Assembly: GCA_022575985.1 (NCBI GenBank)
Contig: JAKSXM010000246.1
Span: 11,612,001 to 11,676,000, forward strand
Direction: 5' to 3'
From: Anagrus nilaparvatae
Lineage: Eukaryota > Arthropoda > Insecta > Hymenoptera > Mymaridae
Length of the DNA stretch: 64,000 bases
Shown: piece after piece, positions 29,500 through 63,479 of the stretch
Position numbering within the stretch: the first letter of the stretch is position 1
Layout: every line of letters starts with the position of its first letter
Translations under genes and position numbers: made by a program
Notes under the pieces: model-generated
What the model was told of the DNA's origin: nothing
The model's database searches: none
Seen by the model: the letters and a program-made list of their open reading frames with translations, nothing else

Positions 29500-31905
29500 C
29501 AGAGCTGCAAGTCAGGGACCGACCAGCAGGTTTTTAAGGATTTGTGATAATAAAAAAATTATTTTATGGGGTGGTTCGTAGTAATTTTTTGCGCTGATTT
29601 TAATGGTGCATTCAGTTTTTCCCGAAAATATTCGGGAGTGCCCGAAATGAGCAAAAAAAAGCCGAATTTTTCTGTAAAGTTTTTGTAAAGTTATTTTTTG
29701 GATTCTACGGTGAAAAATAAGTTCAGAAATGCTTTTGTATCATAAAAAAAGTCGATCCTGAATTATTTATCTCAATTAGAAAATCAAGAAAATTTTAAAA
29801 TTTATTCGACTACGCAATATTACGCAAATATTACGCAACCGTCAAATGTTTTCTAACAAAAATATTTATTTATACTTTTTTTGGTTATAAAATTTTAAAT
29901 TCTTATTTACATGGGTTTTTGGAGATTTTGGAGTTAAGAAAAAAGTGTTTATATCTGTTAAGGTTAGATTGATTAGTTTATTGATATAAGTCAAGTTATC
30001 TACAGCTGTGCTGCGGTTAAAAATAATAACGGCAGTCAAAATAATGAATTTAAGAGATTATATTCAAATTAATAATTAAAGGAAAACATCTTTAAAACTA
30101 AAGTCATTATTTAAATTTCTTTTTTTTTTTTTAAACGGCAAACAAACAAATATTTTATATGCTATGTTCTACTAGAAAAAAAAATTAAAAAATAGATTGT
30201 TTATTTAAAATGAAGTTAATTTTAACGTTATTTTTAAAAATAAAGATAAAAGTTGCTGTTTTGCAATAAAATTGTAAAATATGCATAACATTTTCAGATG
30301 ATTTCTCAGAAGAGATTTAAGGGACAAAACTAGTCTTTATTTGTAGATTAAAATGAGGAAATTGTCAACATATTATCTAACTAAAGATTATGTTTCACTA
30401 AAATCTTTAAAAATTATTATTCAAAAGGTAGTCCCGCTTGCTATATTTAGAAAGCTCTACCGCTTGCATTATCTAAGCGGGAATCCCGCCTGCATTATTT
30501 TCCGCTTGGATAATCCAAGAGAGAGTCCTGCTTGCAATGTTCAAAGGGTCTCCCGCTTGCATTATCCAAGCGAGACTTCCATTAATGCTTAGCAATCAGG
30601 GTTTTCCTTAATGATAAGCAGGCCATATCCAATTCAGGCAGCCATACCGCTTGCATCGTGCATACGGCTCAAGCACTTGCATAATGCAGGTGGCCATAGC
30701 CCTTGCACCGTGCAGTCGGCCATAGCGCTTGCATCTTGCAGGCGTCTCAAATACTTGCATCTTGCAGCCGGCTCAAGCGCTTGCAACTTGCAGGTGGCCA
30801 TAGAACTTGCATCTTGCAGGCGCCTCAAGCGCTTGCAACTTGCAGGCGCCTCAAACATTTGCATCATGCAGGCGGTCAAACGCTTGCAACTTGCAGGCGG
30901 CCATAGAACTTGCATCTTGCAGGCGGCTCAAGCGCTTGCAACTTGCAGGCGGCCATAGAACTTGCATCTTGCAGGCGCCTCAAGTGCTTGCATGTTGCAG
31001 GCGCCTCAAACACTTGCATCTTGCAGGCGGCTCAAGCGCTTGCAACTTGTAGGCTGCCTTACCGCTTGCATCTTGACAGGCGGCCTTACCACTTGCATTG
31101 TGCAGGCGGCCATAGAACTTGCATCTTGCAGGCGCCTCAAGCGTTTGCATCTTGCAGGCGGCTCAAGCTCTTGCATCTTACAGGTGGCTCAAGCGCATGC
31201 ATCTTGCAGGCGGCTCAAGCGCTTGCATCCTGCAGGCGGCTCAAATGCTTGCATCATGCAGGCGGCCATAAGGCTTGTATTATGCAGGCGGTGAAGCGCT
31301 TGCATCTTACAGGCGGCTCAAGCGCTTGCATCTTGCAGGTGGCTCAAGTGCTTGCATGGCGCTGGCGCCTTAAACACTTGCATCTTGCAGGCGGCTCAAG
31401 CGCTTGAAACTTGCAGGCGGCCTTACCGCTTGCACCGTGCAGGCGGCCATAGAACTTCCATCTTGCAGGAAGCCCAAGCGCTTGCATCTTGCAGGCGGCC
31501 CAAGCGCTTGCATCGTGCAAGCGCTTGCACTGTGCAGACGGCCATAACGCTTGCATCTTGCAGGCGGCCATAGCGCTTGCATCGTGCAGGCGGCTCAAGT
31601 GCTTGCTTTATGCAGGCGGTCAAGCGCTTGCATCTTGCTGGCGGTGAAGTGCTTGCATTTTACAGGCGGCTCACGCGCTTGCATCTTACAGGTGGCTCAG
31701 GCGCTTGCATCTTGCCGGTGGCTCAAGCGCTTGCATGGTGCAGGCGCCTCAAACACTTGCATCTTGCAGACAGTCTTGCATTCACATTATCTCCCGCTTG
31801 GCTAATCCAAGAGGGACTCCGCATGCATTATCCAAGAGAGTCTCCAGCTTCAAAAATCACAGAGGGTCTCAATTTGTAATATCTAGAAGGGTCTCTCGCT
31901 TGCAT
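29500..31905. repeat. Long terminal inverted repeat, left
   Basis: Matches the reverse complement of 60,735-63,479. The outer 1.1 kb (29,500-30,600) is single-copy-like sequence with very few differences between arms. The inner part is the 26-bp minisatellite, with different unit numbers in the two arms. High arm identity suggests a fairly recent insertion or ongoing gene conversion. Confidence 0.88.
30585..31795. repeat. 26-bp GC-rich minisatellite in left TIR
   Basis: About 44 units of the form CTTGCATCTTGCA + GGCGGCTCAAGCG (13 + 13 bp), diverged by a few per cent or more. Because 26 is not a multiple of 3 and stops are rare, long frames are open on both strands (for example 30,910-31,407). 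These encode repeats such as LASCRRLKRLHLAGGSSACI and are not credible genes. Confidence 0.9.
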
Positions 31906-32440
31906 TATCCAAGCGGGCCTCCCGCCTGAATTATTTCCCGCTTGGATTATCCAAAAGGTAGTCCCGCTTGCTATATTTAAAATGGTCTCCCGCCTGCATT
32001 ATTTACCGCTTGGAAAATCCAAGAGGGATTCCCGCTTGCAATATTCAAAGGGTCTCCCGCTTGCATTATCCAAGCGGGAGTCCCACCTGAGTTATTTCCC
32101 GCTTGGATAATCCAAGAGGGAGTCCCGCTTGTAATATCTAAATGGGTCTTCCGCCTGCATTATTTACTGTTTGGAAAATCCAAGAGGGATTCCCGCTTGC
32201 AATATTCAAAGGGTCTCCCGCTTGCATTATCCAAGTGGGACTACCGCCTGAATTATTTACCGCTTGGATTATCCAAAGGTAGTCCCGCTTGCTATATCTC
32301 AAAGGGTCTCACGCTAGCATTATCCAAGCGGGACTCTCACCTGCGTTATTTCCCGCTTGGATAATCCAAGAGGGTGTCCTGCTTGCAGTATTTAAAAGTG
32401 GCTTCCGCTTGCATTATCCAGGTGGAATTCCCGCCAGCAT
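31796..32440. repeat. CCCGCTTG...CAAGCGGG repeat array
   Basis: Units contain CCCGCTTGCATTATCCAAGC and TTATTTCCCGCTTGGATAAT with AAGGGTCTCCCGC spacers. Each is a near-palindrome. The outer few units are shared with the right arm (60,735-60,860) and with 62,330-62,550. Non-coding. Confidence 0.8.
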
Positions 32441-32990
32441 TTTCGCTATGAAATTCCATACGGCAAAATCCAATACTGGAGCCGTATAAAATTGTCCATT
32501 AATACGGCATATTACTTACGGATCCCGTATTTATTTATGCCGTATGAAAAACCGTACAACAAAAAAGAGTAGAAAACCACTTATTTTTACGGCATAAGAA
32601 TATACTCGCATATTTTTCTCATACGGGCCAGTGTGCATATAGGACCTGGATAATTTCATAATGCCCACGGACCCGTATGCGTATTGGAGAGGGCATTTTC
32701 ATAATGCCCACGGCTCAGTATACATATGAGACCTAGGAAATTTCATTACACCAACGGACCCGAATGGGTATAGCTCTAGGGTATTTTCATAATGCTAACA
32801 GATCCGTGAGCATTAAAACACCCAAGTCATATACGCATACGGTCCCGTATGCATATGAGATTTGGGTATTATCATACTGCTGACGGATCCGTGGGCAGTA
32901 TACATTCAAACTTTAACATACTATCAACGGATCCGTATAGTTATAAAAACAAAGTATTGACAGACTGGGCACGTATCATTATACTGCTTA
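32441..32990. repeat. Degenerate tandem repeat with CCCACGGACCCGTATG units
   Basis: Units of about 40-60 bp contain TTTCATAATGCCCACGGACC and CGTATGCATATGAGACCT-like parts; at least five are visible. Non-coding, and adjacent to ATACGGCATA-rich sequence. Confidence 0.65.
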
Positions 32991-34493: not shown

Positions 34494-34642
34494 TTTTGAG
34501 AAATTAATTTTCTTTTAACGAGTTTGTAAATTTACTAACATGTTAATAAGCTTTGTACCTGTTAATAATTTTTAATGTAAAGATTTTAACAGTGTTTTTT
34601 TTAATACTTTCATTACTTTTGAATTAAAAAGAAAAAGTAAAA

Positions 34643-37174
34643 TTAGCGCCTTAAATAATTACATCCTACACATTTTATCATGTGTTCTACATGACCACCT
34701 TCCATGTCAGCGCATAAACGAATCCGTTCTACAATGGACCTTTGAACATTGCGCAATTGATGTGGCGTTATGCTTCGGAAAGCTTCTTCAACTAACTGCC
34801 TAGCATGCTGAGCATTTTCTGGCCTTCTTGCAAAAACGTAATCCTTCACATAGCCCCATAAGAAAAAATCACAGGGTGTTAGATCAGGAGAATAAGGAGG
34901 CCAGAATTGAGGTCCCCCTATCCCAATCCAACGTCTTGGGAACATTTCATTTAAAACATCAACTACATTTCGAGCTCTGTGTGGACTGGCACCATCCTGT
35001 TGGAAAATCATTCTATTTCTTAGGTTTTCTGGCAGCACCTCTAATAAATTTGGTAATGTTTCTTCAATGAAATTTAAATAGCTACGTTGGTTTACATTTC
35101 CTTCAAAGAAAAAAGGTCCTATGAGAAAAAAATAATTATTATAAATACACTTATAGTAAGAAAATTAAAGATGAAAACTGAAATACCTATGACTCTTTCT
35201 CCAATTATTCCACCCCAAACCATTATTGACCAGGTTCCTTGAGCTTCGACCGGAGCAATCCAGTGAGGGTTATATGGCTCCCATCTTCTTACATTATGTC
35301 TGTTAAATAGACCTCTCCCAGTTATCAACATCTCATCGCTGAAAAGAATATTTTCAAATATTCTCCTATTCAAATCTGAAAATTTTTTAAAAATGATTGT
35401 AAAAATGAATTTGTTATTTGAAATAGTTGACAATACAAAAATAGTTTTTATAGAATTTTTGTTTTTTATATTTGAAATTTTATTTTAAAACAAATTTTCT
35501 AATATATTATCACAAATATCAAAATTTTCTTACTAAACCTGCCCAAAGCCCATATACAGAAAACCAAGCGTGCCCACATTTTTCGATTATTAAGTTCCTG
35601 ATGTTTGCTGCTCATGTATGGGTACAGTCGGAGCCGTCTTCTTGCGACTAGTCTAACGGTTTCCCTATTGAATCCTATAAAAACAAAGCAATCAGGTATG
35701 CATTTTTTTCAAAGAAATTAAATAAATGCTAGAAGATTTCGCCATCTGACCCTCGATCAGTTTCAAATTTTAGAACACAGTAATTATAAAAATGGGTTTC
35801 TTAAGTTATCTTTGCAATATCACTATATTCTTGTTCCTTAACTTAACAAATAACAGGTTGCCTTAGCTTTCTATGCAAGGGTCTACTTTAGAATACCATA
35901 AACTGCATATTTTAATCTTTAGCTATTACTCCAGTCAAAATACTGATTTAGTTGTATTGTTATTGACAACCACCAAATTTGGTCTTGTATAGGTTTTTTT
36001 GGATCGCTGATCACAAATTTATTTATTATTTTTTATGAAAAATTGATGTTTTACCTTTAAATTAGCAAAATTTGCTAATATAGAGAAAATACCCCGTTCA
36101 GGTGTGTTAGTTGCTAATTTAAGGGTGAAGCCTCAATTTATCATAGAAAATAACCTAATATTCGTGATCAGCGACTCAAAAACCCGACTAGACCAAATCT
36201 GATGAGAGCCATTGCAAACGTAATGAAAAACCTCTAATAGGGGTAGTTTAAGCTAATTGAATGGTGAAATATTAATTTTAGCTACATAAATTACAACAAT
36301 TATTGATCAGCGTCCCAAAAAACCCCCATGTACTACATCTTGGCAAAAATATCAAAAATGCATCATTTTGGGAATAGTTTTAGCTAATTTAAGGGTGAAG
36401 CTCCAATTTCTTTACAAAATGACACCGAAATTCGTGATCAGCGACCCTAAAAACCTAAACTAGGCCTAATCTGATGGTAGGCAGTAACAACAGCACCTCT
36501 CTCCGTATTTTTACTGGATTATATTCTCTTCATGATATTCAAATAACAAACTATTCAAGTTTCTAGTTATGGAAAGCTAATTCAAGAGAAAAACATAACG
36601 AAGAAAAAAAATCCGGTAACCGTAACCGAGAATTTTCATGTGCCAGTTTTTTCCTAACAAAATCCTGAAACTTTGAAACAAATCGAGGTCATAACGCCGT
36701 AAATACTCCTTATGAATTTTAAATAGGCTATTTATAATGATAATAATAATAAAATTACCAATTTCCATTGCAAACTTAACCATACTAATTTCTGTAGTTT
36801 CCTGCAGCCTATTTTGTAATAATGGAACAATAGCATCTGCTATTGGCCTTTCTCTCTGTTGAACTGGACGAGAAAATAAACCAAAATCCAAGTATTTTTG
36901 ATACATGCTAAAAACGAACAATAATTTTTAGTTCTTGGTTTGAAAATCTGGCAATGTAATATTGAAATTAAAAAATATGAATTTCTCACTCTATGAATGT
37001 GGTGTGTGAGGGAACTATTTCATTTGGGTATACTAGAGAGTATATCCTTTGGGCTTGTCGAGGTGAATAGTCGGTTAGAATAAAAACTTCAAACATTTTC
37101 AAATGTCGGCGTAACAAATTATCATCTCTTTCCTTTTTTGCAATAGCTCTAGCTTGAGCACGGTTATTGAGCAT
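34643..37174 (-). CDS. IS630/Tc1/mariner-superfamily transposase, intact, five exons
   Basis: Cut-and-paste DDD/E transposase. Minus-strand exons: 37174-36990, 36907-36759, 35674-35534, 35375-35187, 35118-34643. All boundaries are GT-AG, phases 2,1,1,1 agree, and the sum is 1,140 nt (379 residues plus stop), a usual length for the family. The N-terminal part (about residues 1-160) has helix-turn-helix character. The catalytic acidic motifs are ILFSDE, IFQQDGASPHRA and PPYSPDLTPCDFFLWG. NRHNVRRWEPYNPHW, GTWSIMVWGGI and PFFFEGNVNQRSYLNFIEE are hallmarks of insect Tc3/SETMAR-annotated transposases. No stop or frameshift was seen, which suggests recent activity or retained function. Introns are 76 to 1,084 bp, unlike most intronless Tc1/mariner genes. 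I saw no short TIR pair of its own around it, which favours its belonging to the giant element. Confidence 0.88.
35675..36758. repeat. Transposase intron 2 with GATCAGCGACCC repeats
   Basis: This 1.1 kb intron contains several units with GATCAGCGACTCAAAAACCC or its complement GGATCGCTGATCAC (near 36,003, 36,165, 36,305 and 36,437) spaced 130-160 bp apart. The units resemble the 133-bp array at 58,490-59,330, and ACTCCAGTCA and CAACCACCAAATTTGG resemble 39,550 and 53,250. Confidence 0.6.
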
Positions 37175-37272: not shown

Positions 37273-37311
<39 letters not shown>

Positions 37312-38265: not shown

Positions 38266-38274
38266 GGGCTCTGA

Positions 38275-39400
38275 TTAGCAAGTTTGATTTTCAACCTTGG
38301 TTAGCAAGCTTGAATTTCAACCTTGATTAGCAAGCTTGATTAGCAAGGTTGCTTAGCAAGGTTTAATATCAAGCTTGAATTTCAACCTTGAATATCAATC
38401 TTGATTAGCAAGCTTGCTTAGTAAGGTTGTTTAGCAAGGTTGAATATCAATCTTGAATTTCAATCTTGATTAGCAAGTTTGATTTTCAACCTTGATTAGC
38501 AAGCTTGATTAGTAAGGTTGTTTAGCAAGGTTGAATATCAAGTTTGATTTTCAACCTTGATTAGCAAGCTTGATTAGCAAGGTTGAATATCAAGCTTGAA
38601 TTTCAATCTTGATTAGCAAGTTTAAATTTCAACCTTGATTAGCAATGTTGTTTAGCAAGGTTGAATAGCAAGGTTATTCAGCAAGCTTGAATTTCAATCT
38701 TGAATTTCATCCTTGATTAGCAAGGTTGTTTAGCAAGGTTGAATATCAAGCTTGAATTTCAATCTTGATTAGCAAGTTTGATTTTCAACCTTGATTAGCA
38801 AGCTTGAATTTCAACCTTGATTAGTAAGCTTGATTAGCAAGGTTGCTTAGCAAGGTTGTATATCAAGATTGATTTTCAACCTTGATTAGCAAGCTTGATT
38901 AGCGAGGTTGTTTAGCAAGGTTGAATATCAAGCTTAATTTCAACCTTGAATTTCAATCTTGATTAGCAAGGTTGATTAACAAGGTTGTTTAGCAAGGTTG
39001 AATATCAAGCTTGAATTTCAATCTTGATTAGCAAATTTGATTTTCAAGCTTGATTAGCAAGCTTGAATTTCAACCTTGATTAGCAAGCTTGATTAGCAAG
39101 GTTGCTTAGCAAGGTTAAATATCAAGATTGATTTTCAACCTTGATTAGCAAGCTTGAATTTCAACCTTGATTAGCAAGCTTGATTAGCGAGGTTGTTTAG
39201 CAAGGTTGAATATCAAGTTTGATTTTCAACCTTGATTAGCAAGCTTGAATTTCAACATTGAATATCAAGCTTGTTTATCAGCCTTTAATAGCAAGCTCTA
39301 ATTTCAACCTTGAATAGCAAGGTTGAATATTAAGCTTGAATTTCAACATTTAATAGCAAGCTTAAGTAGCAAGCTTGAATAGCAAGCTTTAGTAGGTAAA
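38275..39400. repeat. 13-bp minisatellite, left array
   Basis: About 87 units of 13 bp in clean register: AAGCTTGATTAGC, AACCTTGATTAGC, AAGGTTGAATATC and AAGCTTGAATTTC are the main types, arranged in higher-order groups. The array is the reverse complement of those at 51,915-52,945 and 53,465-55,845. The following 190 bp (39,400-39,590) is also inverted at 53,275-53,465. Confidence 0.9.
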
Positions 39401-39607
39401 TATCAATAAATGTCTAATATGTTTAGGAATATACTTAATTTAAAAATTTTTTCCGGGTGTGGCATATTAATCAACGTGCTTTAGACAGATTCTGAGAAAA
39501 ATATTAAGGCATTTAGATGTTTAAATAAAATGTGTATACCCTTCATACTCCAGTCATAGTACGGGTTTTGCTGTATAATTATAGTTACTGGAAATAATTA
39601 TAGTTAC

Positions 39608-41118: not shown

Positions 41119-41852
41119 GAAGGGTCAGACTCAATATAAATAAATTTTTTATACTTTTATACTTATAAAATTAAATAAATTAAATTTTAAAAAATTTATT
41201 TAAAATAGACAGAAAATAAAAAAAAATATTTGCAATTTTGATTTTAAAGAGTTTGAATACTATTTTCACATTATCAAGTACTATAAATTTTTTTTAAAAT
41301 TCTTAGGTCTCATAATTAAAGTATGTGCAAAAGTAAGGTAATTTCAATTGAAAAAATAGCGTAAATGAGGGGACAAGTTTTTGTAATTCTTAATCTTTTT
41401 TTATTTTTTTTTTTATAAACAATTTATCGAAAAACTGAACCAAATTTTGTGGTAAACTATACTAGAATGAGAAATGTTGACCTTGCAATCAGTAGGTTTA
41501 AGTCATTTTAAATAGCTTATCAATTTCATTGCATGGGTCGAAATTCAATAATTTTTTTGCATAATTTAAAACTACATAAAAAAATATTATAAACGTATTT
41601 TTTTATTTTTCAAAAAAATTAATGACATCACATTTTTAAATTAAACGGATAGTAATCGTGGTCCGCACTTGCTGTTACTGCGGTCGCTTGTCGCAAACGT
41701 TGTTTTGCATATTTAAAAAAAAAAAAAAAAATACGTGTCTAATATTTTTTCTAGTATAGTTTAAGATCATGTAAAAAAATTCTTCAAATTCCGACTCATG
41801 CAAACCAATAAAAAAAAATAAAATAAATTTTTAAATATCAAAAAATTCTAAC
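41119..41852. other. Gene-free stretch downstream of the BTB exon
   Basis: Later BTB exons would be expected here on the minus strand, but none was recognised. Only AT-rich sequence is seen. Confidence 0.4.
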
Positions 41853-42032
41853 ATTGAAAATGTTTTTAAAGAAATTACTACTTGTGGATAATATAACTTT
41901 ATGAGCATTCAAAGTTTTGCCGTCACTAACTATTGAAACATCTATTAGATCTTTATTACTCAGTAGATTTTGAATATTTGACATGTAGTTGGCGTAGATC
42001 GTTTGATCTTTTTGATCAATTTTAAAGGTCAT
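41853..42032 (-). CDS. BTB/POZ domain first exon (partial gene)
   Basis: Sixty codons from an ATG at 42,032 to a possible donor (AAT|GTTAGA) at 41,853. The protein contains NYMSNIQNLLSNKDLIDVSI, then VSDGKTLNAHKVILST and SSNFFKNIFN, matching the first half of the BTB/POZ fold (conserved LxDVxxxxDGKxxxAHKxxLxxxSxxF). In insects this exon type starts BTB zinc-finger/HTH transcription regulators, where the BTB dimerises. The second half of the BTB domain and any DNA-binding part were not found nearby, so the gene is partial, has a long intron, or is a captured exon. It lies within the giant element and has no stop. Confidence 0.75.
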
Positions 42033-42501
42033 TATAATGCTTCGAATACAATGAAATATCTTGCGTTAATTTATTAAGACAATATAACCTACAATATAAC
42101 CTTTTTTTAAAGAAAAAAGCAATCATCATTAAAAAAAAAATTGAAAAATTGTTGCAATATACATTGAGTTTTTCATATATCAAAATAGGTTAGGCATAAA
42201 AAATTAATAAATTGTTTACTTTTTTAATGATAATTTTTATTATTTTTTTTATCAAATAACATAAATTAATTAGAAAAAAATTTTTAAATTAAGTGACATA
42301 AGGTGAGTTTATACATAGAATTAACTTTTTAGCAAGATAAATAAAATATTTTTTATATTAAAATATTAGCATGGAACATGTTTATAGGGTGGGGCATGCA
42401 TCATTCTTTAAAAAAAAAAATATTATAATAAATCTTATGATATAAGGGTGAAAAAAGGGTAGGGAGGGGGTAGGAGATTGGTTGGATATTAAGTTAATGC
42501 A
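42033..42501. other. Gene-free stretch
   Basis: AT-rich sequence with an isolated AACATGTTTATAGGG terminus at 42,374, like the ends of the repeats at 45,565 and 55,977. Confidence 0.5.
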
Positions 42502-45033
42502 TATGAGAAATTCCACCAAAAGATTGCGGTTATTATGGTCAACCTTTTGAAAAAAAAAAATTTGTAGGCACACCTTGCTAGTACGTTTTTTTGAGTTCCT
42601 TATATCATATATAGTTACAAAAAAGTGATGAACAGAAAAAATGTTGCGTGTACAATAGTTTTTTTTTAGTTGGAAGGCTCAAAATCACGTTTTTCTGATT
42701 TAAAAAAATCAATTTTTGAAACTTTTTTTTAATCAATTAAAATCATTCTAAACGATATATTTCTGTTTTATAACTTATTTTGTACTCATAATTTACTAAA
42801 AAAATCGTTTTTATAAAGAAATAAGACAAATTTTTAATTATTAGCGTCTTAAAGCAGCTCAAAAATTAAAAAAACGTTTTTAAAAATAAAGACTGCTTAT
42901 TTAGCTTTTAAAACTTCTTTTAGTGGAATTATTATTAAAAGATAATGATAAAAAGTTGAATTAAATATAACTCATAAGTTAAGAGCCTTAGAAATTACCT
43001 AAAACAGCTGAAAAAAACTCCAAAGCTAAATTATCCAATTTTGGATTATTTTTAAAATAGCAAAATCAGTCTCGTTTTCAATGATTTTGTTTAAAATAAG
43101 TTTTTTACAGATTTTTTTATTATTTACTTTAATTATAAATATTTTAAAGTATTATCTTTCTGTTGAAAATAATTTTTCTTTTAATTTTTAACCTCTTAAA
43201 GAAGTTCAAATGTTAAATATTGGGTTTTTTAAAAATTCATAGACTTGGGTTCTTTCTAGCAGATTCAAATAATATTACAAAATGGACTAAAAGACGCATT
43301 TCCTAGTAATTTTTCCCGTATAATTCGAACTCACTATTTATTTTAACATTTTACTACACTTTACAGGAGAAAAATTCATTTTTTTAGTTTTTTAGGGTAT
43401 CAATTATGGGGGACCAATTTTTAAAAGTTTCGCAGTCTTTCGTTTCGCAAATTTTCTGAATAGTATTTGCAAGAGTTATTTATATATTTTTTCCTCAGGA
43501 ATTCGATGAAACCACTAGTTTTTTCATCTGGGGTTTTCCTTAGCCATAAAATCTTATGTTTCTATTTTTACTGGTTTTGTCCAGTCTTTTATATTTTGCA
43601 TTAGTAGCCCATTTGAGCCTAAAGGGTTTGAAATATGTAAAATTATCTTTAATAAATAAATAGACAGTGAAAAACTACTTGATAAAATACTAAAACTTTT
43701 TGTTTTTTAATAGTCGAGTTAATTAATAATTTATTATTTTGCAATAATTCTCCTATAATCTCAATTTCACGTTACTTGAAGTTCAATAATTTAAAAATTT
43801 GATAAGTCAGTGAATTTTCATCATAAAACTAAACGATTTCGTATTTTATTGAACAGTTTTTTCCTGTCTATTTATTTATTAAAGATAATTTTACATATTT
43901 CAAACCCTTTAGGCTCAAATGAGCTGCTAATGCAAAATATAAAAGACTGGACAAAACCAGTAAAAATAGAAACATAAGATTTTACGGCTAAGGAAAACCC
44001 CAGATGAAAAAACTAGTGGTTTCATCGAATTCCTGAGGAAAAAATATATAAATAACTCTTGCAAATACTATTTAGAAAATTTTTTCTTGAAGACTGCGAA
44101 ACTTTTAAAAATTGGTCCCCCATAATTGGTACCCTAAAAAACTAAAAAAATGAATTTTTCTCCTGTAAAGTGTAGTAAAATGTTAAAATAAATAGTGAGT
44201 TCGAATTATACGGGAAAAATTACTAGGAAATGCGTCTTTTAGTCCAATTTGTAATATTATTTGAATCTGCTAGAAAGAACCCAAGTCTATGAATTTTTAA
44301 AAAACCCAATATTTAACATTTGAACTTCTTTAAGAGGTTAAAAATTAAAAGAAAAATTATTTTCAACAGAAAGATAATACTTCAAAATATGTAAAATTAT
44401 AGTAAATAATGAAAAAATCTGTAAAAAACTTAGTATTAAACAAAATCATTGAAAACGAGACTGATTTTGCTATTTTAAAAATGATCCAAAATTGGTTAAT
44501 TTAGCTTTGGAGTTTTTTTCAGCTGTTTTAGGTAATTTCTAAGGCTCTTAACTTATGAGTTATATTTAATTCAACTTTTTATCATTATCTTTTAATAATA
44601 ATTCCACTAAAAGAAGTTTTAAAAGCTAAATAAGCAGTCTTTATTTTTAAAAACGTTTTTTTAATTTTTGAGCTGCTTTAAGACGCTAATAATTAAAAAT
44701 TTGTCTTACTTCTTTATAAAAACGATTTTTTTAGTAAATTATGAGTACAAAATAAGTTATAAAACAGAAATATATCGTTTAGAATGATTTTAATTGATTA
44801 AAAAAAAGTTTCCAAAATTGGTTTTTTTAAATATCGGAAAAACGTAATTTTGAGCCTTCCAACTCAAAAAAAACTATTGTACTCGCAACATTTTTTCTGT
44901 TCATCACTTTTTTGTGACTATATATGATCTAAGGAACTCAAAAAAACGTACTAGCAAGGTGTGCCTTCAAATTTTTTTTTTTCAAAAGGTTGACCATAAT
45001 AAGCGCAATCTTTTGGTGGAATTTCTCATATAT
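42502..45033. repeat. Very long hairpin, arms about 1.2 kb
   Basis: Outer edges GAGAAATTCCACCAAAAGAT and ATCTTTTGGTGGAATTTCTC are perfect inverses. Similarity runs inward to about 43,690 and 43,840, leaving a loop of about 150 bp. Arms share TACTAGCAAGGTGTGCC/GGCACACCTTGCTAGTA, GGTTTTCCTTAGCC and ACTGGTTTTGTCCAGTC with only scattered differences. No ORF. A single-arm relative lies at 9,655-10,080, so the unit is a dispersed foldback repeat. Confidence 0.92.
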
Positions 45034-45564
45034 AATGTTTTTTATAAATTAATCAGTACTCTTGAAATTTACTTATATAATTTTGTGTAATATATAAAAT
45101 AGTAATAATAATAATAATTATTATAATTAATTTTTTTCAAAAAATTTGAGTAAGAATTAAAATGTGGACAAATCTTATATTAATTGGATTAATTTTTTTG
45201 TTGAAAATCTTTTTAATCGATGCGGCACTGAAAATTTACGCATTGGGTTAAATTTTCGTGTAGAACGGAATTATACTAACAGGTCCATCGTATAACAAAT
45301 AAAAGACAAGAAATTTTCAGCGCATGGAGACAAAAGATATTTTACGTAAACCTGTAATAGTAATTCTTTTCAAAAGACTTGATATTTTTATTATTTGCAC
45401 CCGATCTAAACTGAAAGCTAAATATTATTTTGAATTATTTTTAATAAATATATTTTTAATTAATAAAAGAAGTTCGCTTTAAAGTTTCAACATTGAATTT
45501 GCAAAATAATAGTAAATATCTGGAAAAGATTTTTTACAGCGTATATATCTATAAAAATTATTAT
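45034..45564. other. Gene-free stretch
   Basis: AT-rich; contains an AAT microsatellite at about 45,102-45,118. Nothing else supported. Confidence 0.5.
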
Positions 45565-45950: not shown

Positions 45951-46110
45951 AAACCTATTATAAATTTTTGTTATCCTTTTTCAATTATTTAGGATCAACA
46001 AATTGATAATAAATAATAAACAAACAAACAAATATAAAATGGGTGATGCATTTAAATCAAGGAATGGCCCAGGATTTAACTATATTTTATATAGATGATG
46101 CATTTATCAG

Positions 46111-49100: not shown

Positions 49101-51019
49101 TTTCTATTTAATTAAAAATATAATATTTTACAAAAAAGTACTTTTATTTTTATAACAGAAGAAAAAATTGATAATGAAAAAGTCTCTAGTCATGAGAATT
49201 TACTTGAAAGATTCAGCGAGTTATGTGCATCATATAAATTCATAAAAAACACCTCAAATGGTATTAAAAAATTTTTTTATATGACGGGTTCCATTCCAAC
49301 TGGGCCCAAAATTACCTTTATTTTTAAGAAAATGTCTAAAAAACGAAAATAGCTACCAAAAATCGAGAACACAACCTAAAGGGATATAAATTATTGGAAA
49401 GGCTAATTATAAGTTACATATTAGGAAAAAAATATTTTTGTCTGATTTTCGGTACCCTTGAGTCAAATTTGTGCCCAGTTTGCGTGGAATCCCTCATATA
49501 TTAATTGCAAATTATTGTACAAAAACTATTTTCTCTCTTTACTTTTAATTTAGATTATTTTACATTATTTAACATATTAATTGTAATTTTTAGATAATAA
49601 AAAAAAAACACCTACTAAAGATGATAAAATTGAATCCAGGCGTCATCGGAGAGGTGATCTATCGCTAATTTTAAAAGATAATTACAATATATTAGAAACT
49701 TCTAATTTAAGATATGGCAAAAAAAGGATTCGATAACATAAACTATACGTTCCTAATTATTTTTTTGCTTAAAAATATATGTTACATTATGTTATATTTT
49801 ATAATTATTTTTATATTGAATTATTGAATTATTATATTTATAAAATTAATAAAATTAAGAATATTTTTACTTTATTCTAATAGTTTTCTTAATTAAAATA
49901 GATTGATTTTTAAAAAGGCAATCACTTCTTGATTAATAATTTTTTTATTTCTGCATCAGTTTTTGACAAAAGTTTTAGAACCAGAAAATTACATGTAGCA
50001 ATTAATGATTTAAAAACAAATGCTTGCTGAATTTTAAATTCCTTTCAATTATTAAATAATTAAATAAAATGTTTTATAGTGTGTCAATATAATCTAACTT
50101 TTTTAGATGGATTAATTTTTTATTTAATTAAAGTTTTGAAAATAATTTTCATAAAAAATAATAAAATTTTAATAAATTATAATAAAGAAATAAATAAATA
50201 AATAATGTATAGCCACGATTTCAGTAAAAATTTGTTTCTAAACAAATAATTTATAAATTTATTTTTTTGTGATTTAATTTTATTGTCATTTATGTTTTAG
50301 CTGATTTTTTTGATAAAATTGAATATAAATAGAAAAATAGAGTAATAGACAAGAGTTTTTTTTAATTTTTACTAAATTTTATCTTCGGTGGGTACTAGTA
50401 CTTTATGCGTGCAATTACATCTTATGCCTTGGGTATTATATTTGGTAGGGTATTCTTAGGAAAATTCTTAATAATCGACAATAATTTTTCTCGAAATATA
50501 TTAAAAATTATTTTCTAGCTACATATAATATTAAAGCTTAGAAAATATTAAAAGTCTATATTTTTTACAGATTTATTGAGAGAGTTAGATAATAAAAAAA
50601 GTATTCAAAAATCATTTTTGAAAATGCCATTAATTGAAAGGAAGAGACAAATCTTAAAATGGCTGAAAATATCCGACACCATTATAAAAAATGCTTTGAC
50701 AAATAGGTACAAAATAACTCAAACAGATTTAAAAGTAACTAAACAAAATTTATCTGCATCATTTTATGATACTAAAGTTACTATTCGTATTGTGAAAGAC
50801 ATTTTTGAAAAAACTGCATTTAAATATTTGAAAAATATTATTAATCATTTCAAAAAGACTTGCTGGCATTGTTTTATTTGTCAAAAACAAACATCCATCA
50901 CAAACAAGAGTAACATTTCCATCTGCTGCGATAAATGCATGTGCTGGTCACATTTGGAGTGCAATGATATTAACGGTTATGTACCTGAAAATGAGTGGTT
51001 TTGTACCCACTGCAAATAA
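46111..51019 (+). CDS. PHD-finger protein gene, multi-exon, 5' end not found
   Basis: Exons 46111-46324, 47230-47503, 47915-48045, 48724-49080 and 49159-49260 have GT-AG borders and matching phases (1,2,1,1,1). A terminal exon follows at 50571-51019. Exon 49595-49735 can end the protein itself (TAA after YGKKRIR) or, through a weaker donor GAGAG|GTGATC, lead into the last exon. The N-terminal 250 residues (LTPNWKIIQDE, STFRDFFSTFYSNIL, ELIPPGLLKDLKSIRSFVKF) belong to no family I recognise. A Ser/Asp-rich acidic stretch (SDEYSSSDDYSSSDD) follows. The last 50 residues form a C4HC3 PHD finger: CFIC, CDKC, HLEC, CTHC. PHD fingers read histone tails, so a nuclear chromatin role is inferred. A TGA at 46,096 blocks extension to the ATG at 46,039; the 46,111 start assumes an acceptor at TTTATCAG, with the first exon further upstream. 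Confidence 0.8.
46790..47165 (+). repeat. Tandem repeat in PHD-gene intron 1, three units
   Basis: Units of about 110-130 bp contain TTACCAGGGGGTTTTCGAGG, AACGTTTTTATGAG and TTTTCCGATTTTCCAAGATG. Clear starts lie near 46,855, 46,982 and 47,093. Just before it (46,520-46,575) lies a short GGTTTCATCTGGTTTCACCT run. Confidence 0.75.
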
Positions 51020-52945: not shown

Positions 52946-53464
52946 ATATAAAATTGGTTCTAGTGTACGTAATACCAAAAATAAAGAGTTTATTAAAATT
53001 ATTCAATCTATTACTGCTGTGGCGAACAAAACATTATTTTTATACCAAATCTTGTTTATTGAAAATTAATTATTATTTTTTGCTCTAAATTTATATCCGG
53101 ATATATTTGAGGTTACTATAGTACTGGATGTGGGTACACAAAGTGTGAATATATTAAAAATAACCCATTTTGAGGGTATTTAATAAGTTGAAGGTGAAGC
53201 CCCAATTTCTTTTCTAAATGACTCCAATCTCGTAATTAGCAACCCAAAATCGTTGTTAGCCCAATTCTGGTGGTCAGTAACTATAATTATACAGCAAAAC
53301 CCGTATTATGACTGGAGTATGAAGGGTTTACACATTTTTATATTTAAACATCTAAATGCCTTAATATTTTTCTCAGAATCTGTCTAAAGCACGTTGATTA
53401 ATATGCCATACCCGGAAAAATTTTTTAAATTAAGTATAACATATTTGACACTTAATTGATATTT
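52946..53464. repeat. Inverted partner of 39,400-39,590, between minisatellite arrays
   Basis: 53,275-53,465 (CAGTAACTATAATTATACAG, ACTGGAGTATGAAG, ATCTAAATGCCTTAATATTT) is the inverse of 39,400-39,590 and ends exactly at the AGTTACTG edge. The part before (52,950-53,270) has a CCAATTTCTTTTCTAAATGA block resembling the transposase intron repeat. No gene. Confidence 0.75.
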
Positions 53465-55845
53465 ACCTACTCAAGCTTGCTATTCAAGGTTGAAATTAAA
53501 GCTTGCTATTAAAGGCCGATAAAAAAGCTTGATATTCAATGTTGAAATTCAAGCTTGCTAATCAAGGTTGAAATTCCAGCTTGATATTCAACCTTGCATA
53601 AACAACCTTGCTATTCAAGCTTGCTAATAGAGCTTTCTAATCAAGCTTGATATTCTACCCTGCTAAACATCATTGCTATTCAAGTTTCCTAAACAAGCTT
53701 GTTATTTAAGCTTTCTTTTTAAGGTTGCTACTCAAGTTGAAATTTAAACTTGCTAATCAAGATTGAAATTCAAGCTTGATATTCAATCTTGCTAAACAAC
53801 CTTGCTAATCAACCTTGCTAATCAAGATTGAAATTCAAGCTTGATATTCAACCTTGCTAAGCAACCTTGCTAATCAAGCTTGCTAATCTAGGTTGAAATT
53901 CAAGCTTGCTAATCAAGGTTGAAATTCAAACTTGCTAATCAAGATTGAAATTCAAGCTTGATATTCAACCTTGCTAAACAACCTTGCTAATCAAGCTTGC
54001 TAATCAAGGTTGAAATTCAAGCTTGCTAATCAAGGTTGAATTTCAAATTTGCTAATCTGGATTGAAATTCAAGCTTGATATTCAATCTTGCTAAACAACC
54101 TTGCTAATCAACCATGCTAATCTAGGTTGAAATTCAAGCTTGCTAATCAAGGTTGAAAATCAATCTTGATATTCAACCTTGCTAAGCAACCTTGCTAATC
54201 AAGCTTGCTAATCAAGGTTGAAATTCAAGGTTGAAATTCAAGCTTGATATTCAACCTTGCTAATCAAGGTTGAAATTCAAGATTGAAATTCAAGCTTGAT
54301 ATTCAACCTTGCTAATCAAGCTTGCTAATCAAGGTTGAAATTCAAGGTTGAAAATCAAACTTGATATTCAACCTTGCTAAGCAACCTTGCTAATCAAGCT
54401 TGCTAATCAAGGTTGAAATTCAAGCTTGCTAATCAAGGTTGAAAATCAAACTTGATATTCAACCTTGCTAAACAACCTTGGTAATCAAGCTTGCTAATCA
54501 AGGTTGAAATTCAAGCTTGCTAATCAAGGTTGAAAATCAAACTTGCTAATCAAGATTGAAATTCAAGCTTGATATTCAACCTTGCTATACTACCTTGCTA
54601 AGCAACCTTGCTAATCAAGCTTGCTAATCAAGGTTGAAATTCAAGGTTGAAAATCAAACTTGATATTCAACCTTGCTAAGCAACCTTGCTAATCAACCTT
54701 GCTAATCAAGGTTGAAATTCAAGCTTGCTAATCAAGGTTGAAAAACAATCTTGATATTCAACCTTGCTAAGCAACCTTGCTAATCAAGCTTGCTAATCAA
54801 GGTTGAAATTCAAGGTTGAAATTCAAGCTTGATATTCAACCTTGCTAATCAAGCTTGCTAATCAAGGTTGAAATTCAAGGTTGAAAATCAAACTTGATAT
54901 TCAACCTCGCTAAGCAAGGTTGAAATTCAAGATTGAAATTCAAGCTTGATATTCAACCTTGCTAATCAAGCTTGCTAATCAAGGTTGAAATTCAAGCTTG
55001 CTAATCAAGGTTGAAAATCAAACTTGATATTCAACCTTGCTAAACAACCTTGGTAATCAAGCTTGCTAATCCAGGTTGAAATTCAAGCTTGCTAATCAAG
55101 GTTGAAAATCAAACTTGCTAATCAAGATTGAAATTCAAGCTTGATATTCAACCTTGCTATACTACCTTGCTAAGCAACCTTGCTAATCAAGCTTGCTAAT
55201 CAAGGTTGAAATTCAAGCTTGCTAATCAAGGTTGAAAATCAATCTTGATATTCAAGATTGAAATTCAAGCTTGATATCCAAGGTTGAATTTCAAATTTGC
55301 TAATCTGGATTGAAATTCAAGCTTGATATTCAATCTTGCTAAACAACCTTGCTAATCAACCTTGCTAATCAAGGTTGAAATTCAAGCTTGCTAATTAAGG
55401 TTGAAAATCAATCTTGATATTCAACCTTGCTTAGCAACCTTGCTAATCAAGCTTGCTAATCAAGGTTGAAATTCAAGATTTAAATTCAAGCTTGATATTC
55501 AACCTTGCTAATAAAGCTTGCTAATCAAGGTTGAAATTCAAGCTTGCTAATCAAGGTTGAAATTCAAGCTTGCTAATCAAGGTTGAAAATCAAACTTGAT
55601 ATTCAACCTTGCTAAACAACCTTGGTAATCAATCTTTCTAATCAAGGTTGAAATTCAAGCTTGCTAATCAAGGTTGAAAATCAAACTTGCTAATCAAGAT
55701 TGAAATTCATGCTTGATATTCAACCTTGCTAAAGAACCTTACTATTCAAGCTTGCAATTAAAGCTTCATATTCAACCTTGTCAAACAACCTTTCTATTCA
55801 AGCTTGCTATTCAAGCTTGTTAAGCAAGCTTGTTATTAAAGATAA
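53465..55845. repeat. 13-bp minisatellite, right array 2
   Basis: About 183 units of the same 13-bp family, with longer higher-order repeats (blocks of roughly 100-200 bp recur, for example around 54,340, 54,640 and 54,880). Inverse orientation to 38,275-39,400. Confidence 0.9.
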
Positions 55846-57000: not shown

Positions 57001-57002
57001 AT

Positions 57003-57761
57003 TTATTCAATAAAATGTTTCTTTAAGTATTTCATCATATTTGCGCTTCTGAAAGAATCAACACCAAATACTTTTTTTAATTCTTGATCGCATATTATTA
57101 TATTTTCATCAGTTGAATCCTAAAAGAAAAAAAAAATTATGTAAAAAATGTTCCAATTTTAGCTTTAAAATAATAAACTGCAAACCTGTAATTTTTTGTT
57201 GTTGATTTTAGCCCATATTCTAGAAATAACCTGGCTTTTTGATGCTTCTTTTAAGTTTATATATTTTGATAATTCCGGCGACAACTTAAAAATTAATTTT
57301 TCACACTGCTTTGATTTATTTTTATAATCTATTTTCTGTTTATCAGCCAGTCCCTTATTTTTTCTAACCTTTGCATTCTTATCATATGTTACTGAAAAAA
57401 TTAAAATTCTTTTTATAACCTCTTTTTGTTATAAATTTATATTATATAAAATTATAAAAGTTAATTTTGAATTTAAGTGGTTTAATGTTTTTAATAATTA
57501 TCTCTCTTAATTACATCCAATCACAATTGAATAAATCTACTTACACATTTTTTCTTTAATTAAATAATTTTTACATGGTAGAGAAACAGGCATTAGATCA
57601 TCAACAAAATCATCATCAGATAACGGCAGTACATTATCTGTTTTTAATTTTTTATTTGTTGTTTGTTCTTCTTCAGAACTAGAACTTTCTGATAACTCCA
57701 ATAAATCAGCGTACTTTTCAATCCAACCATCTTACATTTCCCCTTCACTTAAATTATCCAT
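57003..57761 (-). CDS. SWIB/MDM2-domain protein gene, three exons, stop codon in exon 1
   Basis: Exons on the minus strand: 57761-57545, 57391-57186, 57119-57003, with GT-AG borders and phases 1 and 0. The last two exons form a SWIB domain: LSPELSKYINLKEASKSQVI, SRIWAKINNKKLQ, IIICDQELKKVFGVDSF and the end MMKYLKKHFIE. SWIB domains occur in BAF60-type chromatin remodelling subunits and short eukaryotic relatives. Exon 1 encodes an acidic Ser/Glu/Asp-rich region (LELSESSSSEEEQ, LSDDDFVDDL). Codon 10 of exon 1 is TAA (57,734-57,732), so translation from the first ATG would stop after MDNLSEGEM. Either a later in-frame ATG (MPVSLPCKN, in exon 1) is used or the copy is recently inactivated. Otherwise the frame is clean. 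It lies inside the giant element. Confidence 0.82.
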
Positions 57762-58489: not shown

Positions 58490-59335
58490 CCTAATAAGTT
58501 TTTCGGACCAGTTATAACGATTTTGAGGTCAGATTTTTAATTTTCAAAATAGCGGGCTAAAAATGGCGGATTCCTAACCTCAAAATCGACAATAAATGCT
58601 AATTTAAGCATTTAAACGTGTTGCATTTTAAGTTTTTGGGGTCGGTAATCACGATTCTGAGGTCAGATTTTTAATTTTCAAAATATCGGGCTAAAAATGG
58701 CGGATTCCTAACCTCAAAATCGACAATAAATGCTAATTTAAGCATTTAAACTTTTTGCATTTTAAGTTTTTGTGGTCGATGATCACGATGCTGAGGTCAG
58801 ATTTTTAATTTTAAAAATAGAGGGCTAAAAACGGTGGATTCCTAACCTTAAAATTGTCAATAAAAGCTATTTTAAGCATTTTAACGTGTTGCATTTTAAA
58901 TTTTTGGGGTCCGTGATCACGATTCTGAGGTCATATTTTAAATTTTCAAAATAGAGGGCTAAAATGGTGTATTCCTAACCTGAAAATCGTCAATAAATGA
59001 TATTTTAAACATTTAAACGTGTTGCATTTTAATTTTTTGCGGTCGGTGAACACGATTCTGAGGGCAGATTTTTATTAATCAAAATATCGGGCTAAAAATA
59101 GTGTATTCCTAACCTCGAAATCGTCAATAAATGCTACTTTAAGCATTTATCGTGTTGAATTTTAAGTTTTTGGGGTCGGTGATCACGATTCTGAGGTCGT
59201 ATTTTTAATAATCAAAATAGTAAGCTCAAATAGTGGATTCCTAACTTCAAAATCGTCAATAAATGCTATTTTGACGTGTTGCATTATAAATTTTTGGGGT
59301 CGCTGATCACGATTTAGTTAGCCATTTAAGGTACA
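58490..59335. repeat. 133-bp tandem repeat, about 7 units
   Basis: Units start TTTTGGGGTCGGTGATCACG and continue ATTCTGAGGTCAGATTTTTA, CGGATTCCTAACCTCAAAAT and AAGCATTTAAACGTGTTGCA. Spacings are 138, 131, 136, 133, 133 and 125 bp. An inverted partial unit lies at 59,368-59,420. Related units occur in the transposase intron. Confidence 0.85.
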
Positions 59336-59424
59336 TGAACGTATTTACTTGTAAGTGTTTTCAAAATCTGACCTCAGAATCGTGATCACCGATCCCAAAA
59401 ACTTAAAATGAAACACGCTAAAAT

Positions 59425-60392: not shown

Positions 60393-60958
60393 CTACGAAC
60401 GCCTTATAAGGGGGTCGCAACCGTAAACAAAGCCGCTGCGGCGCATTGCGCAGAGCAAATCACGTTGTTCGCATTGCGTTGCGTGTACGCTTCACATACA
60501 GCACAAAACGTTTCTAAACGTTTCTAATGTTAACTAAAACGCAAATAGAAACATTTTCAAAACGTTCAAGAAACATTTTTTAGGTCAGCTTTTTATTGGT
60601 CCAACAAATTTAATTTTTTTTGCTAAGTGATTATGTATAAAAAAAAATGTGAAAAAAAAATTATAAAAAATATTAAATGTAAACAAAATTATTTTACATG
60701 GAAATGTTTTTAAAACGGGAAATAATGGAATAATGGATAATGCAAGCGAGAGGCCCTTCTAGATATTACAAATTGAGACCCTCTGTGATTTTTGAAGCTG
60801 GAGACTCTCTTGGATAATGCATGCGGAGTCCCTCTTGGATTAGCCAAGCGGGAGATAATGCGAATGCAAGACTGTCTGCAAGATGCAAGTGTTTGAGGCG
60901 CCTGCACCATGCAAGCGCTTGAGCCACCTGCAAGATGCAAGCGCCTGAGCCGCCTGTA

Positions 60959-61545
60959 CTGCCGTCCAGGAGAAAAAAGGCAATATCTCACTTTTAACTA
61001 ATTTCGAGATATTTAAAGAAACGCGTTTCGGTTAATTTTGATAAGTTTATATACAATTAAAAAGATATTTATATGTTTCTAAGGTAATTAAGATATGCTC
61101 TTTTCATTGGTGAAAAAATTTTTCCAAAATTTCCACTCCTTATATGAAAAACAAGAGATATGCAAAAATAGCAGCGCCAAATCAGCTTATAATACAGGAG
61201 AAGAAAAGCAATATCTTTTATTCCTATACTCATATAAAGAGATATTGCTTTTCTTTCCTGTATTGAAATATTTTTTTCCATGCGCGCTGCTCTGCCGTAC
61301 AGGAGAAGAAAAGCAATATCTCGAGATATGCATTTATTTCATGTATTTTTTTTTTTATTCCATGTTAAATTTTATCAAATACATGAAACCTTCGAGATAT
61401 GCAGTGCTAACTTTTTTGTTATCAGTGATATGAAAATAATTTTTGCACCACTGGATAGATTTTTTTTTCACGATTATGCACATATAAAAATCTCATTTTT
61501 CATAAAATCTCGAGATATTGCCTTTTTTCTCCTGTACGGCAGTGT
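60959..61545. mobile_element. TIR element inserted in right-arm minisatellite
   Basis: Left end CTGCCGTCCAGGAGAAAAAA, right end TTTTTTCTCCTGTACGGCAG. The broken minisatellite unit CCTGTAAGATGC shows TGTA on both sides, a 4-bp target duplication. Internal copies of ACAGGAGAAGAAAAGCAATA at 61,193 and 61,299 suggest nested insertion of the same family. No transposase. Absent from the left arm. Confidence 0.75.
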
Positions 61546-62280
61546 AAGATGCAAGCGCTTCACCGCCAGCAAGATGCAAGCGCTTGACCGCCTGCATAAA
61601 GCAAGCACTTGAGCCGCCTGCACGATGCAAGCGCTATGTCCGCCTGCAAAATGCAAGCGATAAGGCCGCCTGTCAAGATGCAAGCGGTAAGGCAGCCTGC
61701 AAGTTGCAAGCGCTTGAGCCGCCTGCAAGATGCAAGTGTTTGAGGCGCCTGCAAGATGCAAGTTCTATGGCCGCCTGCAAGTTGCAAGCGCTTGAGCCGG
61801 CTGCAAGATGCAAGTATTTGAGACGCCTGCAACATGCAAGCGCTTGAGGCGCATGCAAGATGCAAGTTCTATGGCCGCCTGAAAGTTGCAAGCGCTTGAG
61901 CCGGCTGCAAGATGCAAGTATTTGAGACGCCTGCAAGATGCAAGTGTTTGAGGCGCCTGCAACATGCAAGCGCTTGAGGCGCCTGCAAGATGCAAGTTCT
62001 ATGGCCGCCTGCAAGTTGCAAGCGCTTGACCGCCTGCATGATGCAAGTGTTTGAGGCGCCTGTAACATGCAAGCGCTTGAGGCGCCTGCAAGATGCAAGT
62101 TCTATGGCCGCCTGAAAGTTGCAAGCGCTTGAGCCGGCTGCAAGATGCAAGTATTTGAGACGCCTGCAAGATGCAAGCGCTATGGCCGACTGCACGGTGC
62201 AAGGGCTATGGCCACCTGCATTATGCAAGTGCTTGAGCCGCATGCACAATGCAAGCGGTATGGCTGCCTGAATTGGATAT
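61546..62280. repeat. 26-bp GC-rich minisatellite in right TIR
   Basis: About 28 units, inverse of the left array: CGCTTGAGCCGCC then TGCAAGATGCAAG. A few more units lie at 60,860-60,958 on the other side of the insertion. Open frames across it are artefacts. Confidence 0.9.
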
Positions 62281-63479
62281 GGCCTGCTTAGCATTAAGGA
62301 AAACCCTGATTTCTAAGCATTAATGGAAGTCTCGCTTGGATAATGCAAGCGGGAGACCCTTTGAACATTGCAAGCAGGACTCTCTCTTGGATTATTATCC
62401 GAGCCTGAAATAATGCAGGCGAGAGTTCCGCCTGGATTATGCAAGCGGGAGACCCTTTTTAATTATTACAAGCGGGAAATAATGCAGGCAGAATTCCCGC
62501 TTGGATAATGCAAGCAGTAGAGCTTTTTAAATATAGAAAGCGGGACTACCTTTTGAATAATAATTTTTAAAGATTTTAGTGAAACATAATCTTTAGTTAG
62601 ATAATATGTTGACAATTTCCTCATTTTAATCTACAAATAAAGACTAGCTTTGTCCCTTAAATCTCTTCTGAGAAATCATCTGAAAATGTTATGCATATTT
62701 TACAATTTTATTGCAAAACAGCAACTTTTATCTTTATTTTTAAAAATAACGTTAAAATTAACTTCATTTTAAATAAACAATCTATTTTTTAATTTTTTTT
62801 TCTAGTAGAACATATAGCATATAAAATATTTGTTTGTTTGCCGTTTAAAAAAAAAAAAAGAAATTTAAATAATGACTTTAATTTTAAAGATGTTTTCCTT
62901 TAATTATAAATTTGAATATAATCTCTTAAATTCATTATTTTGACTGCCGTTATTATTTTTAACCGCAGCACAGCTGTAGATAACTTGACTTATATCAATA
63001 AACTAATCAATATAATCTTAACAGATATAAACACTTTTTTCTTAACTCCAAAATCTCCAAAAACCCATGTAAATAAGAATTTAAAATTTTATAACCAAAA
63101 AAAGTATAAATAAATATTTTTGTTAGAAAACATTTGACGGTTGCGTAATATTTGCGTAATATTGCGTAGTCGAATAAATTTTAAAATTTTCTTGATTTTC
63201 TAATTGAGATAAATAATTCAGGATCGACTTTTTTTATGATACAAAAGCATTTCTGAACTTATTTTTCACCGTAGAATCCAAAAAATAACTTTACAAAAAC
63301 TTTACAGAAAAATTCGGCTTTTTTTTGCTCATTTCGGGCACTCCCGAATATTTTCGGGAAAAACTGAATGCACCATTAAAATCAGCGCAAAAAATTACTA
63401 CGAACCACCCCATAAAATAATTTTTTTATTATCACAAATCCTTAAAAACCTGCTGGTCGGTCCCTGACTTGCAGCTCTG

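Follow-up and report, generated by a model that had tools for sequence, protein, structure and literature searches.

The Anagrus nilaparvatae DNA analysed here, a stretch of 64,000 nucleotides on contig JAKSXM010000246.1 (C161) that is called the window below, raises two questions: whether the roughly 34 kb that interrupt a Penelope retroelement in it are a single mobile unit, and which enzyme would move a unit of that length. Positions 29500-63479 were found to be one transposon of 33,980 bases with inverted ends. It has long terminal inverted repeats (TIRs), TA flanks, an exact empty site, a total of three full copies in the genome and an unbroken five-exon transposase frame, and it is very probably an autonomous element of giant size that belongs to the IS630-Tc1-mariner group and has a DD41D transposase.

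Ends, Target Site and Empty Site

The sequence CAGAGCTGCAAGTCAGGGAC begins at 29500 and its reverse complement terminates at 63479. The ends, the target-site duplication and the interrupted host sequence are as follows.

29180..29499, minus strand: Penelope half with the GIY-YIG motif, host DNA (GIY-YIG 22.0 bits, cut-off 22.6)
29498..29499: TA target-site duplication, left, as read in the sequence
29500..31911, plus strand: left TIR, consisting of a unique 1.04 kb followed by a tandem-array part
60734..63479, minus strand: right TIR, interrupted by an insert at about 60959-61545
63480..63481: TA target-site duplication, right, as read in the sequence
63482..64000, minus strand: second Penelope half, host DNA

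The two arms align in inverted orientation in three blocks, namely 29498-30536 with 62440-63481 (97.8% over 1042 columns), 30432-31357 with 61549-62477 within the tandem array (87%), and 31687-31911 with 60734-60958 (225 bp, 98.2%). From these three blocks, the inverted repeat is about 2.4 kb long. We read the insert in the right TIR as a miniature inverted-repeat transposable element (MITE). The first 920 bases of both ends of the window copy are 99.46% identical (918 aligned bases, 2 gap runs), and the window contains no runs of N.

When the unit and one TA are removed, the flanks join as a single open Penelope frame (...NKTGIVYKLTCNDC...). In a genome search with the joined flanks, in which 40 of 169 candidates were scored, the joined 300 bases matched four Penelope copies elsewhere at 100% over positions 1-300, and 17 further copies matched over 1-298 or 1-300 at 95-99%. 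The joined flank sequence is the exact empty site in a young, repeated retroelement. An earlier, sequence-only reading of the window had proposed one transposon bounded by long inverted repeats, TA as the duplicated target and the splitting of a Penelope open reading frame. The arms of about 2.4 kb with TA on both sides bear out the first proposal, the TA flanks and the joined empty site, which keeps one TA, agree with the second, and the third is confirmed by the rejoined halves, found intact in four copies over 300 of 300 bases. The outcome that the two halves come from different Penelope copies did not occur, as the rejoined sequence is present intact elsewhere.

Two further observations concern the Penelope sequences themselves. 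Five successive junction matches at C171:1018163-1030491, with a spacing of about 3008 bases, suggest a tandem array of Penelope copies. By eye, the right Penelope flank holds a direct repeat of at least 57 bases, at 63827-63883 and at 63944-64000, the latter reaching the end of the window.

Copies Elsewhere in the Genome

The search of the genome with the TIR gave at least 172 matches, many of which are pieces of the array (40 of 93 candidates scored). Pairs of plus-strand and minus-strand ends delimit a second full copy at C157:5438144-5482541 (44.4 kb) and a third at C342:6616150-6655234 (39.1 kb), each with TA on both sides. These two copies have the same ends and the same genes as the window copy, and the flanks differ among the three. 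Counting only aligned pieces of at least 150 bases and 95% identity, the C157 and C342 copies match the window at 95-99.8%. Over the first 920 bases, the two ends within each of the three full copies are 99.46, 100 and 99.56% identical. The near-identical ends within copies and the empty site identical to four Penelope copies indicate recent activity.

A 22-mer consisting of TA and the element end occurred 18 times in 488.7 Mb at up to three mismatches, compared to 0 for the reversed control pattern; TA precedes 17 of the 18 ends, a number to be read with the fact that the pattern itself contains TA. On C273 lies a 3.5-kb derivative that is flanked by TA on either side and lacks the first base of one end, and C337 carries an older sister copy with a decayed transposase. 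The sequence-only reading had proposed a TIR search for other full copies as a check, and the search returned inverted pairs delimiting 34.0 kb on C161, 44.4 kb on C157 and 39.1 kb on C342. The ends pair into full-length units at three places, and the outcome that each TIR belongs to a separate short element did not occur.

The C342 copy also contains a 3.4-kb insert at window positions 46072-46080, where the 9-base junction overlap resembles a 9-bp target duplication. The genome as a whole gave at least 147 matches to the insect-specific odorant-receptor family PF02949 (127 of 1210 candidates scored), compared to none in 14 control genomes, in line with an insect source.

Transposase Gene

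The left arm contains a minus-strand gene at 37174-34643, whose five exons splice to an IS630-Tc1-mariner transposase of 379 amino acids with a DD41D triad in the predicted model. All four junctions have GT-AG introns, and the frame is unbroken in the window copy.

36990..37174, minus strand: transposase exon 1; GT-AG boundaries, open frame
36759..36907, minus strand: transposase exon 2; GT-AG boundaries, open frame
35534..35674, minus strand: transposase exon 3; GT-AG boundaries, open frame
35187..35375, minus strand: transposase exon 4 with the first catalytic Asp, D172; GT-AG boundaries, open frame
34643..35118, minus strand: transposase exon 5 with D263 and D305 (DD41D); GT-AG boundaries, open frame

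A protein search with the transposase gave 1214 homologues at E <= 0.001, and the following values refer to the 120 of them that were listed. Few are named, one of them as 'Tc3 transposase-like', and PF16087 is present in many. The residues at the catalytic columns are DDD in all 120, and the spacing between the second and third Asp is 41 in 111, 42 in 7, 43 in 1 and 58 in 1. The top near-full-length relatives have 38-42% identity over 87-91% of the length, and the closest partial relative has 58% identity over 58%. The putative assignment to the DD41D lineage rests on the triad spacing, and the TA duplication agrees with the IS630-Tc1-mariner enzyme group.

The transposase exons were also found by tblastn in the C157 and C342 copies, where they contain no stops; in the older C337 copy, the exons are present with stops and with N replacing the first catalytic D. 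When the genome was searched with exon 5 and 150 of 180 candidates were scored, the four best matches were the C161, C157, C342 and C337 elements. The fifth, at 57%, lies on C95, 11 kb from a PHD exon of the element's family and about 27 kb from a SWIB match. After C95, the long matches are at 41% and less or similar, up to 45%, and short fragments elsewhere reach 49% over 104 residues and 66% over 44 residues. Between the window and C95, residues 161-378 have a nonsynonymous divergence (dN) of 0.362, and the synonymous divergence (dS) is saturated. A search for inverted repeats around the DD41D gene gave just short AT-rich matches, with a best E of 0.004 unmasked and 0.41 masked (slightly different span).

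Judging from these comparisons, we conclude that the DD41D gene is probably the element's own transposase, because it is in all full copies, is not bracketed by convincing TIRs and, among the candidates scored, has no close copies outside these elements apart from short fragments and the C95 relative. The giant transposon with TIRs and a TA duplication described by the sequence-only reading is retained, and the enzyme, which that reading missed, is added to it as a five-exon Tc1/mariner-type transposase.

Accessory Genes

PHD, SWIB and BTB domains are typical of chromatin and regulatory proteins. The following exons with such domains, and frames that would belong to the same genes, lie inside the element.

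41838..42065, minus strand: BTB-domain exon of an accessory gene (Pfam E 2.4e-9)
47190..47507, plus strand: conserved upstream exon, probably of the PHD gene; borders approximate
50552..51019, plus strand: last exon of the PHD gene, with the PHD finger; acceptor probably near 50573, by eye
57165..57428, minus strand: SWIB-domain exon of an accessory gene (Pfam E 1.7e-7)
57537..57731, minus strand: acidic frame that probably encodes the N-terminus of the SWIB protein

The last exon of the PHD gene has 30 matches in the genome, consisting of the three full copies and 27 more at 24 loci, and the identity ranges from 95% down to 28%; the weakest of these may be other PHD proteins. For the upstream exon at 47190-47507 there are 14 matches, one in each full copy and 11 others (30-94%) distributed over 10 loci. 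The dN/dS ratios of the PHD exon against four relatives are 0.262, 0.295, 0.325 and 0.284, which indicates that the PHD-finger gene is under purifying selection. The exon at 47190-47507 gave a weak signal against C95 (0.636), and a comparison of codon positions with the C95 copy, for the frames at 45.9-51.1 kb, left the upstream exons of the PHD gene tentative. Over its final 140 residues, the PHD exon aligns with the C-terminal region of a profile built from MULE-ZSWIM relatives (E 8.6e-23). A protein search with a provisional PHD model (five hand-joined frames, last 152 residues) gave, among 208 candidates, none outside this genome at E <= 0.01.

The SWIB exon has five genome matches, namely the three full copies, C337 (with stops) and C95 (50% over 50 residues). 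The BTB exon has 23 matches, with one in each full copy, two at 5.74-5.75 Mb of C337 and 18 weaker BTB matches. A DD41D match lies within 40 kb at 4 of the 24 PHD loci, compared to 0.35 expected under uniform placement, an excess that repeat clustering could inflate and to which we give little weight. This count drew on 90 transposase matches out of the 147 that lie outside the full copies, and on the 30 PHD matches minus the three full copies and three second fragments.

Two other loci hold frames related to the PHD gene. At L048 (C175:5748500-5751500), a frame with a SWIM match above the cut-off and a PHD match just below it apparently encodes a transposase of the MULE-ZSWIM type that ends in a PHD and has relatives among the proteins of Hydra and pea aphid. 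At L047 (C206:37000-40500), what by eye is apparently a fragment of a Polinton-type DNA polymerase B has directly upstream of it a frame akin to the PHD end.

Arrays, Internal Repeats and Nested Insertions

Both TIRs carry 26-bp tandem arrays, and a second inverted pair, with 13-bp arrays, brackets the gene core inside the element.

30648..31769, plus strand: 26-bp tandem array of the left TIR, 43.6 copies
61546..62257, minus strand: 26-bp tandem array of the right TIR, 27.5 copies
38272..39590, plus strand: left arm of the internal inverted repeat, a 13-bp array and 200 unique bases
53275..55832, minus strand: right arm of the internal inverted repeat, 200 unique bases and a 13-bp array
42505..45080: nested insertion that the C157 and C342 copies lack; approximate borders, with the C342 copy resuming at 45027
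46503..47146: nested, dispersed MITE-like repeat in the PHD-gene region of all three full copies

The 26-bp arrays could be extra binding sites of the transposase. The 7-mer CTTGCAG of the element end is found 20 times in the left array and 12 times in the right one, where shuffling gave a mean of 0.165 (200 shuffles) for the left and 0.1 for the right. This excess is weak evidence, because any tandem repeat that holds the 7-mer once gives such an excess. The MITE-like repeat at 46503-47146 was found at many other places in the genome, which account for most of the matches listed for its region. The right part of the element also contains a 134-bp satellite of 6.2 copies at 58495-59314.

Alternative Explanations

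A composite origin is compatible with the explanation given above, and we consider it rather unlikely. In this scenario, a formerly independent mobile element, now the core at about 38.3-55.8 kb that bears the BTB and PHD genes, inserted into a smaller DD41D element, and both have since moved as one. The 13-bp arrays with their 200 unique bases form an inverted pair flanking this core, and at the locus L040, which lacks the core, at most 1.1 kb separates a left arm reaching 38280 from a segment similar to 56691-56854. PHD and BTB exons also lie together at C337 5.74-5.76 Mb with no TIR or end match among the matches listed (40 of 93 TIR candidates scored), and the divergences of the PHD exon and the transposase conflict on C95 and C337. 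However, the outer array ends, by eye, without clear termini or a target duplication, and the core has the same position in all three full copies. Moreover, a 6-kb stretch at C1:3003487 combines a TIR (94%) with 26-bp arrays, one 13-bp array and a remnant of the PHD sequence.

It is much less probable that the DD41D gene belongs to a mariner nested in the left arm of a giant transposon whose movement depends on a different enzyme, such as a relative of the MULE/ZSWIM transposases. The fit of the PHD-exon C-terminus to the MULE-ZSWIM profile, the presence of PF10551 in three of four proteins of that type and the abundance of DD41D-type transposases in the genome (at least 150 matches) would be in line with such nesting, but no convincing TIRs bracket the gene, and besides the 57% relative on C95 the exon 5 search (150 of 180 candidates scored) gave just weaker families and short fragments outside the elements (the fragments at most 66% over 44 residues). 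The profile was built from six sequences (P0001-P0004 and the L047 and L048 frames) and run against frames of at least 20 amino acids from the window, from the copies on C157 and C342, and from eight further loci. In the three full copies neither a catalytic nor a SWIM frame reached significance; the MULE catalytic domain (PF10551) was not found in these copies, and the C-terminal PHD region was the sole significant match. MULE target duplications are 8-9 bp, whereas the TA duplication suits IS630-Tc1-mariner. A MULE as the mover was rejected, since the profile search matched the PHD end alone, and the nested mariner was dropped as the principal explanation since the DD41D gene has neither convincing TIRs around it nor close independent copies.

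An integrated large DNA virus or a Polinton-like element is hardly credible: the size of 34-44 kb and the long TIRs would fit, but the duplication is TA, and when 20 translated frames, chosen from those inside the element, were scanned against Pfam, no family of polymerases, integrases, ATPases or capsid proteins exceeded the cut-off, in agreement with the sequence-only reading, in which no Polinton genes were visible. A viral origin was set aside after two viral-contig scans (with the SWIB frame and a transposase exon; reaching close relatives only) gave no relative. An assembly artefact, or two separate short elements with inverted ends, is equally implausible, because, although the element is rich in tandem arrays that are hard to assemble, there are three full units with distinct flanks and TA at both ends of each, the empty site is exact, and the window is free of N.

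Several results weigh against the interpretation as a giant IS630-Tc1-mariner element. The five-exon splice model is a prediction; the Pfam DDE_3 match of the transposase, at 26.4 bits, is just below the 28.6 cut-off, and a weak N-terminal helix-turn-helix match (DUF4817, E 0.056) is also below its cut-off. The SWIB gene has an in-frame stop in the window copy, in the frame at 57537..57731, which is open in the C157 and C342 copies. CTTGCAG is absent from the internal 13-bp arrays, and matches to the 26-bp array without a listed end match occur at C342:23.77 Mb, C62:26.14 Mb and C213:3.91 Mb, among others; because of these two facts, a binding role of the arrays is weakly supported. Finally, the transposase and the PHD exon differ in their divergence: C95 has a close PHD exon (dS 0.21) and a saturated transposase, and C337 has a transposase at 95% with a PHD exon at 57% lying 30 kb from it. 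This discord at the C95 (11.79-11.83 Mb) and C337 (6.47-6.52 and 5.74-5.76 Mb) loci indicates either that modules were exchanged or that some of these neighbours are not one element.

Comparison with Known Elements

Tc1/mariner-type elements are the textbook compact transposons. The element has the TA duplication and, as predicted, the transposase of IS630-Tc1-mariner, and its size, intron-split transposase, array-bearing TIRs and cargo would distinguish it within that group. As described in the report on aphid elements with long terminal inverted repeats (LTIR), Apismar5.1 is a DD41D element of 2307 bp with TIRs of 466 bp, and Apismar5.2 is a DD40D element of 2423 bp with TIRs of 460 bp; TA duplications are reported there for the aphid elements, except for one rosa lineage, Apismar4.2 (PMC5490172). 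Going by these descriptions, the element resembles the Apismar5 LTIR elements in its DD41D/DD40D-type triad and in TIRs far beyond the classical mariner length, and differs from them in its 34-44 kb, its array-bearing TIRs of about 2.4 kb, its five-exon transposase and its accessory genes. The rosa elements of aphids are given as 1299-1355 bp, with TIRs of 27-32 bp and a transposase of 361-362 amino acids (PMC5490172), and the VS elements with complete open reading frames in bees as 1024-2258 bp (PMC8472432). Like rosa and VS, the element has a DD41D transposase (379 amino acids here, 361-362 in rosa). The DD41D-type elements in these two descriptions are 1.0-2.4 kb long, against 34-44 kb here (PMC5490172, PMC8472432).

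Among the giant elements, Polinton/Maverick elements have long TIRs, tens of kb and animal hosts in common with this one. Their target duplication is 6 bp, and Teratorn targets TTAA. Unlike Polinton/Maverick, the element has a TA duplication, and none of the genes for PolB, integrase, ATPase or capsid was found in the 20 frames scanned. Teratorn is described as a piggyBac-type enzyme fused to a herpesvirus, 41-182 kb in size (PMC6431247, PMC10175614). On that description, the element is like Teratorn in being giant and in having one transposase and many additional genes, and unlike it in its TA target and in that the 20 frames scanned contain no piggyBac transposase or herpesvirus gene. It has the C-terminal region of its PHD gene in common with MULE-ZSWIM-type proteins whose ends are, by eye, PHD-like (P0004, with PF10551, and P0001), and is unlike them in its TA duplication and in that no MULE catalytic or SWIM frame was found in the full copies.

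Proposed Mechanism and Implications

The spliced left-arm gene would yield the transposase, which would bind the TIR ends (CAGAGCTGCAAG) and possibly also the subterminal 26-bp arrays. The enzyme would excise the 34-44 kb unit and insert it at TA. The PHD, SWIB and BTB genes would be kept as helpful passengers, most likely acting on host chromatin or silencing.

In searches of the open-licence PubMed Central literature, judged by titles and the starts of abstracts, a giant Tc1/mariner-type element was not found, and the words 'mariner' and 'Tc1' are absent from the main text of a review of giant eukaryotic transposons (PMC6431247). We tentatively suggest, as a possibility that falls short of an even chance, that a giant Tc1/mariner-type lineage persists in Anagrus nilaparvatae as a modular vehicle, in which transposase arms with array-bearing TIRs carry selected PHD, SWIB and BTB genes that counter silencing, and modules are swapped between element families. 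Owing to the close copies and the exact empty site, the activity of the element, the function of its cargo and its silencing are directly testable. If the interpretation as a giant IS630-Tc1-mariner element is true, this recently mobile member of 34-44 kb shows that the Tc1/mariner enzyme class can move such lengths, and that this class can carry and keep cargo genes, as the giant elements of fungi and fish do with other enzymes.

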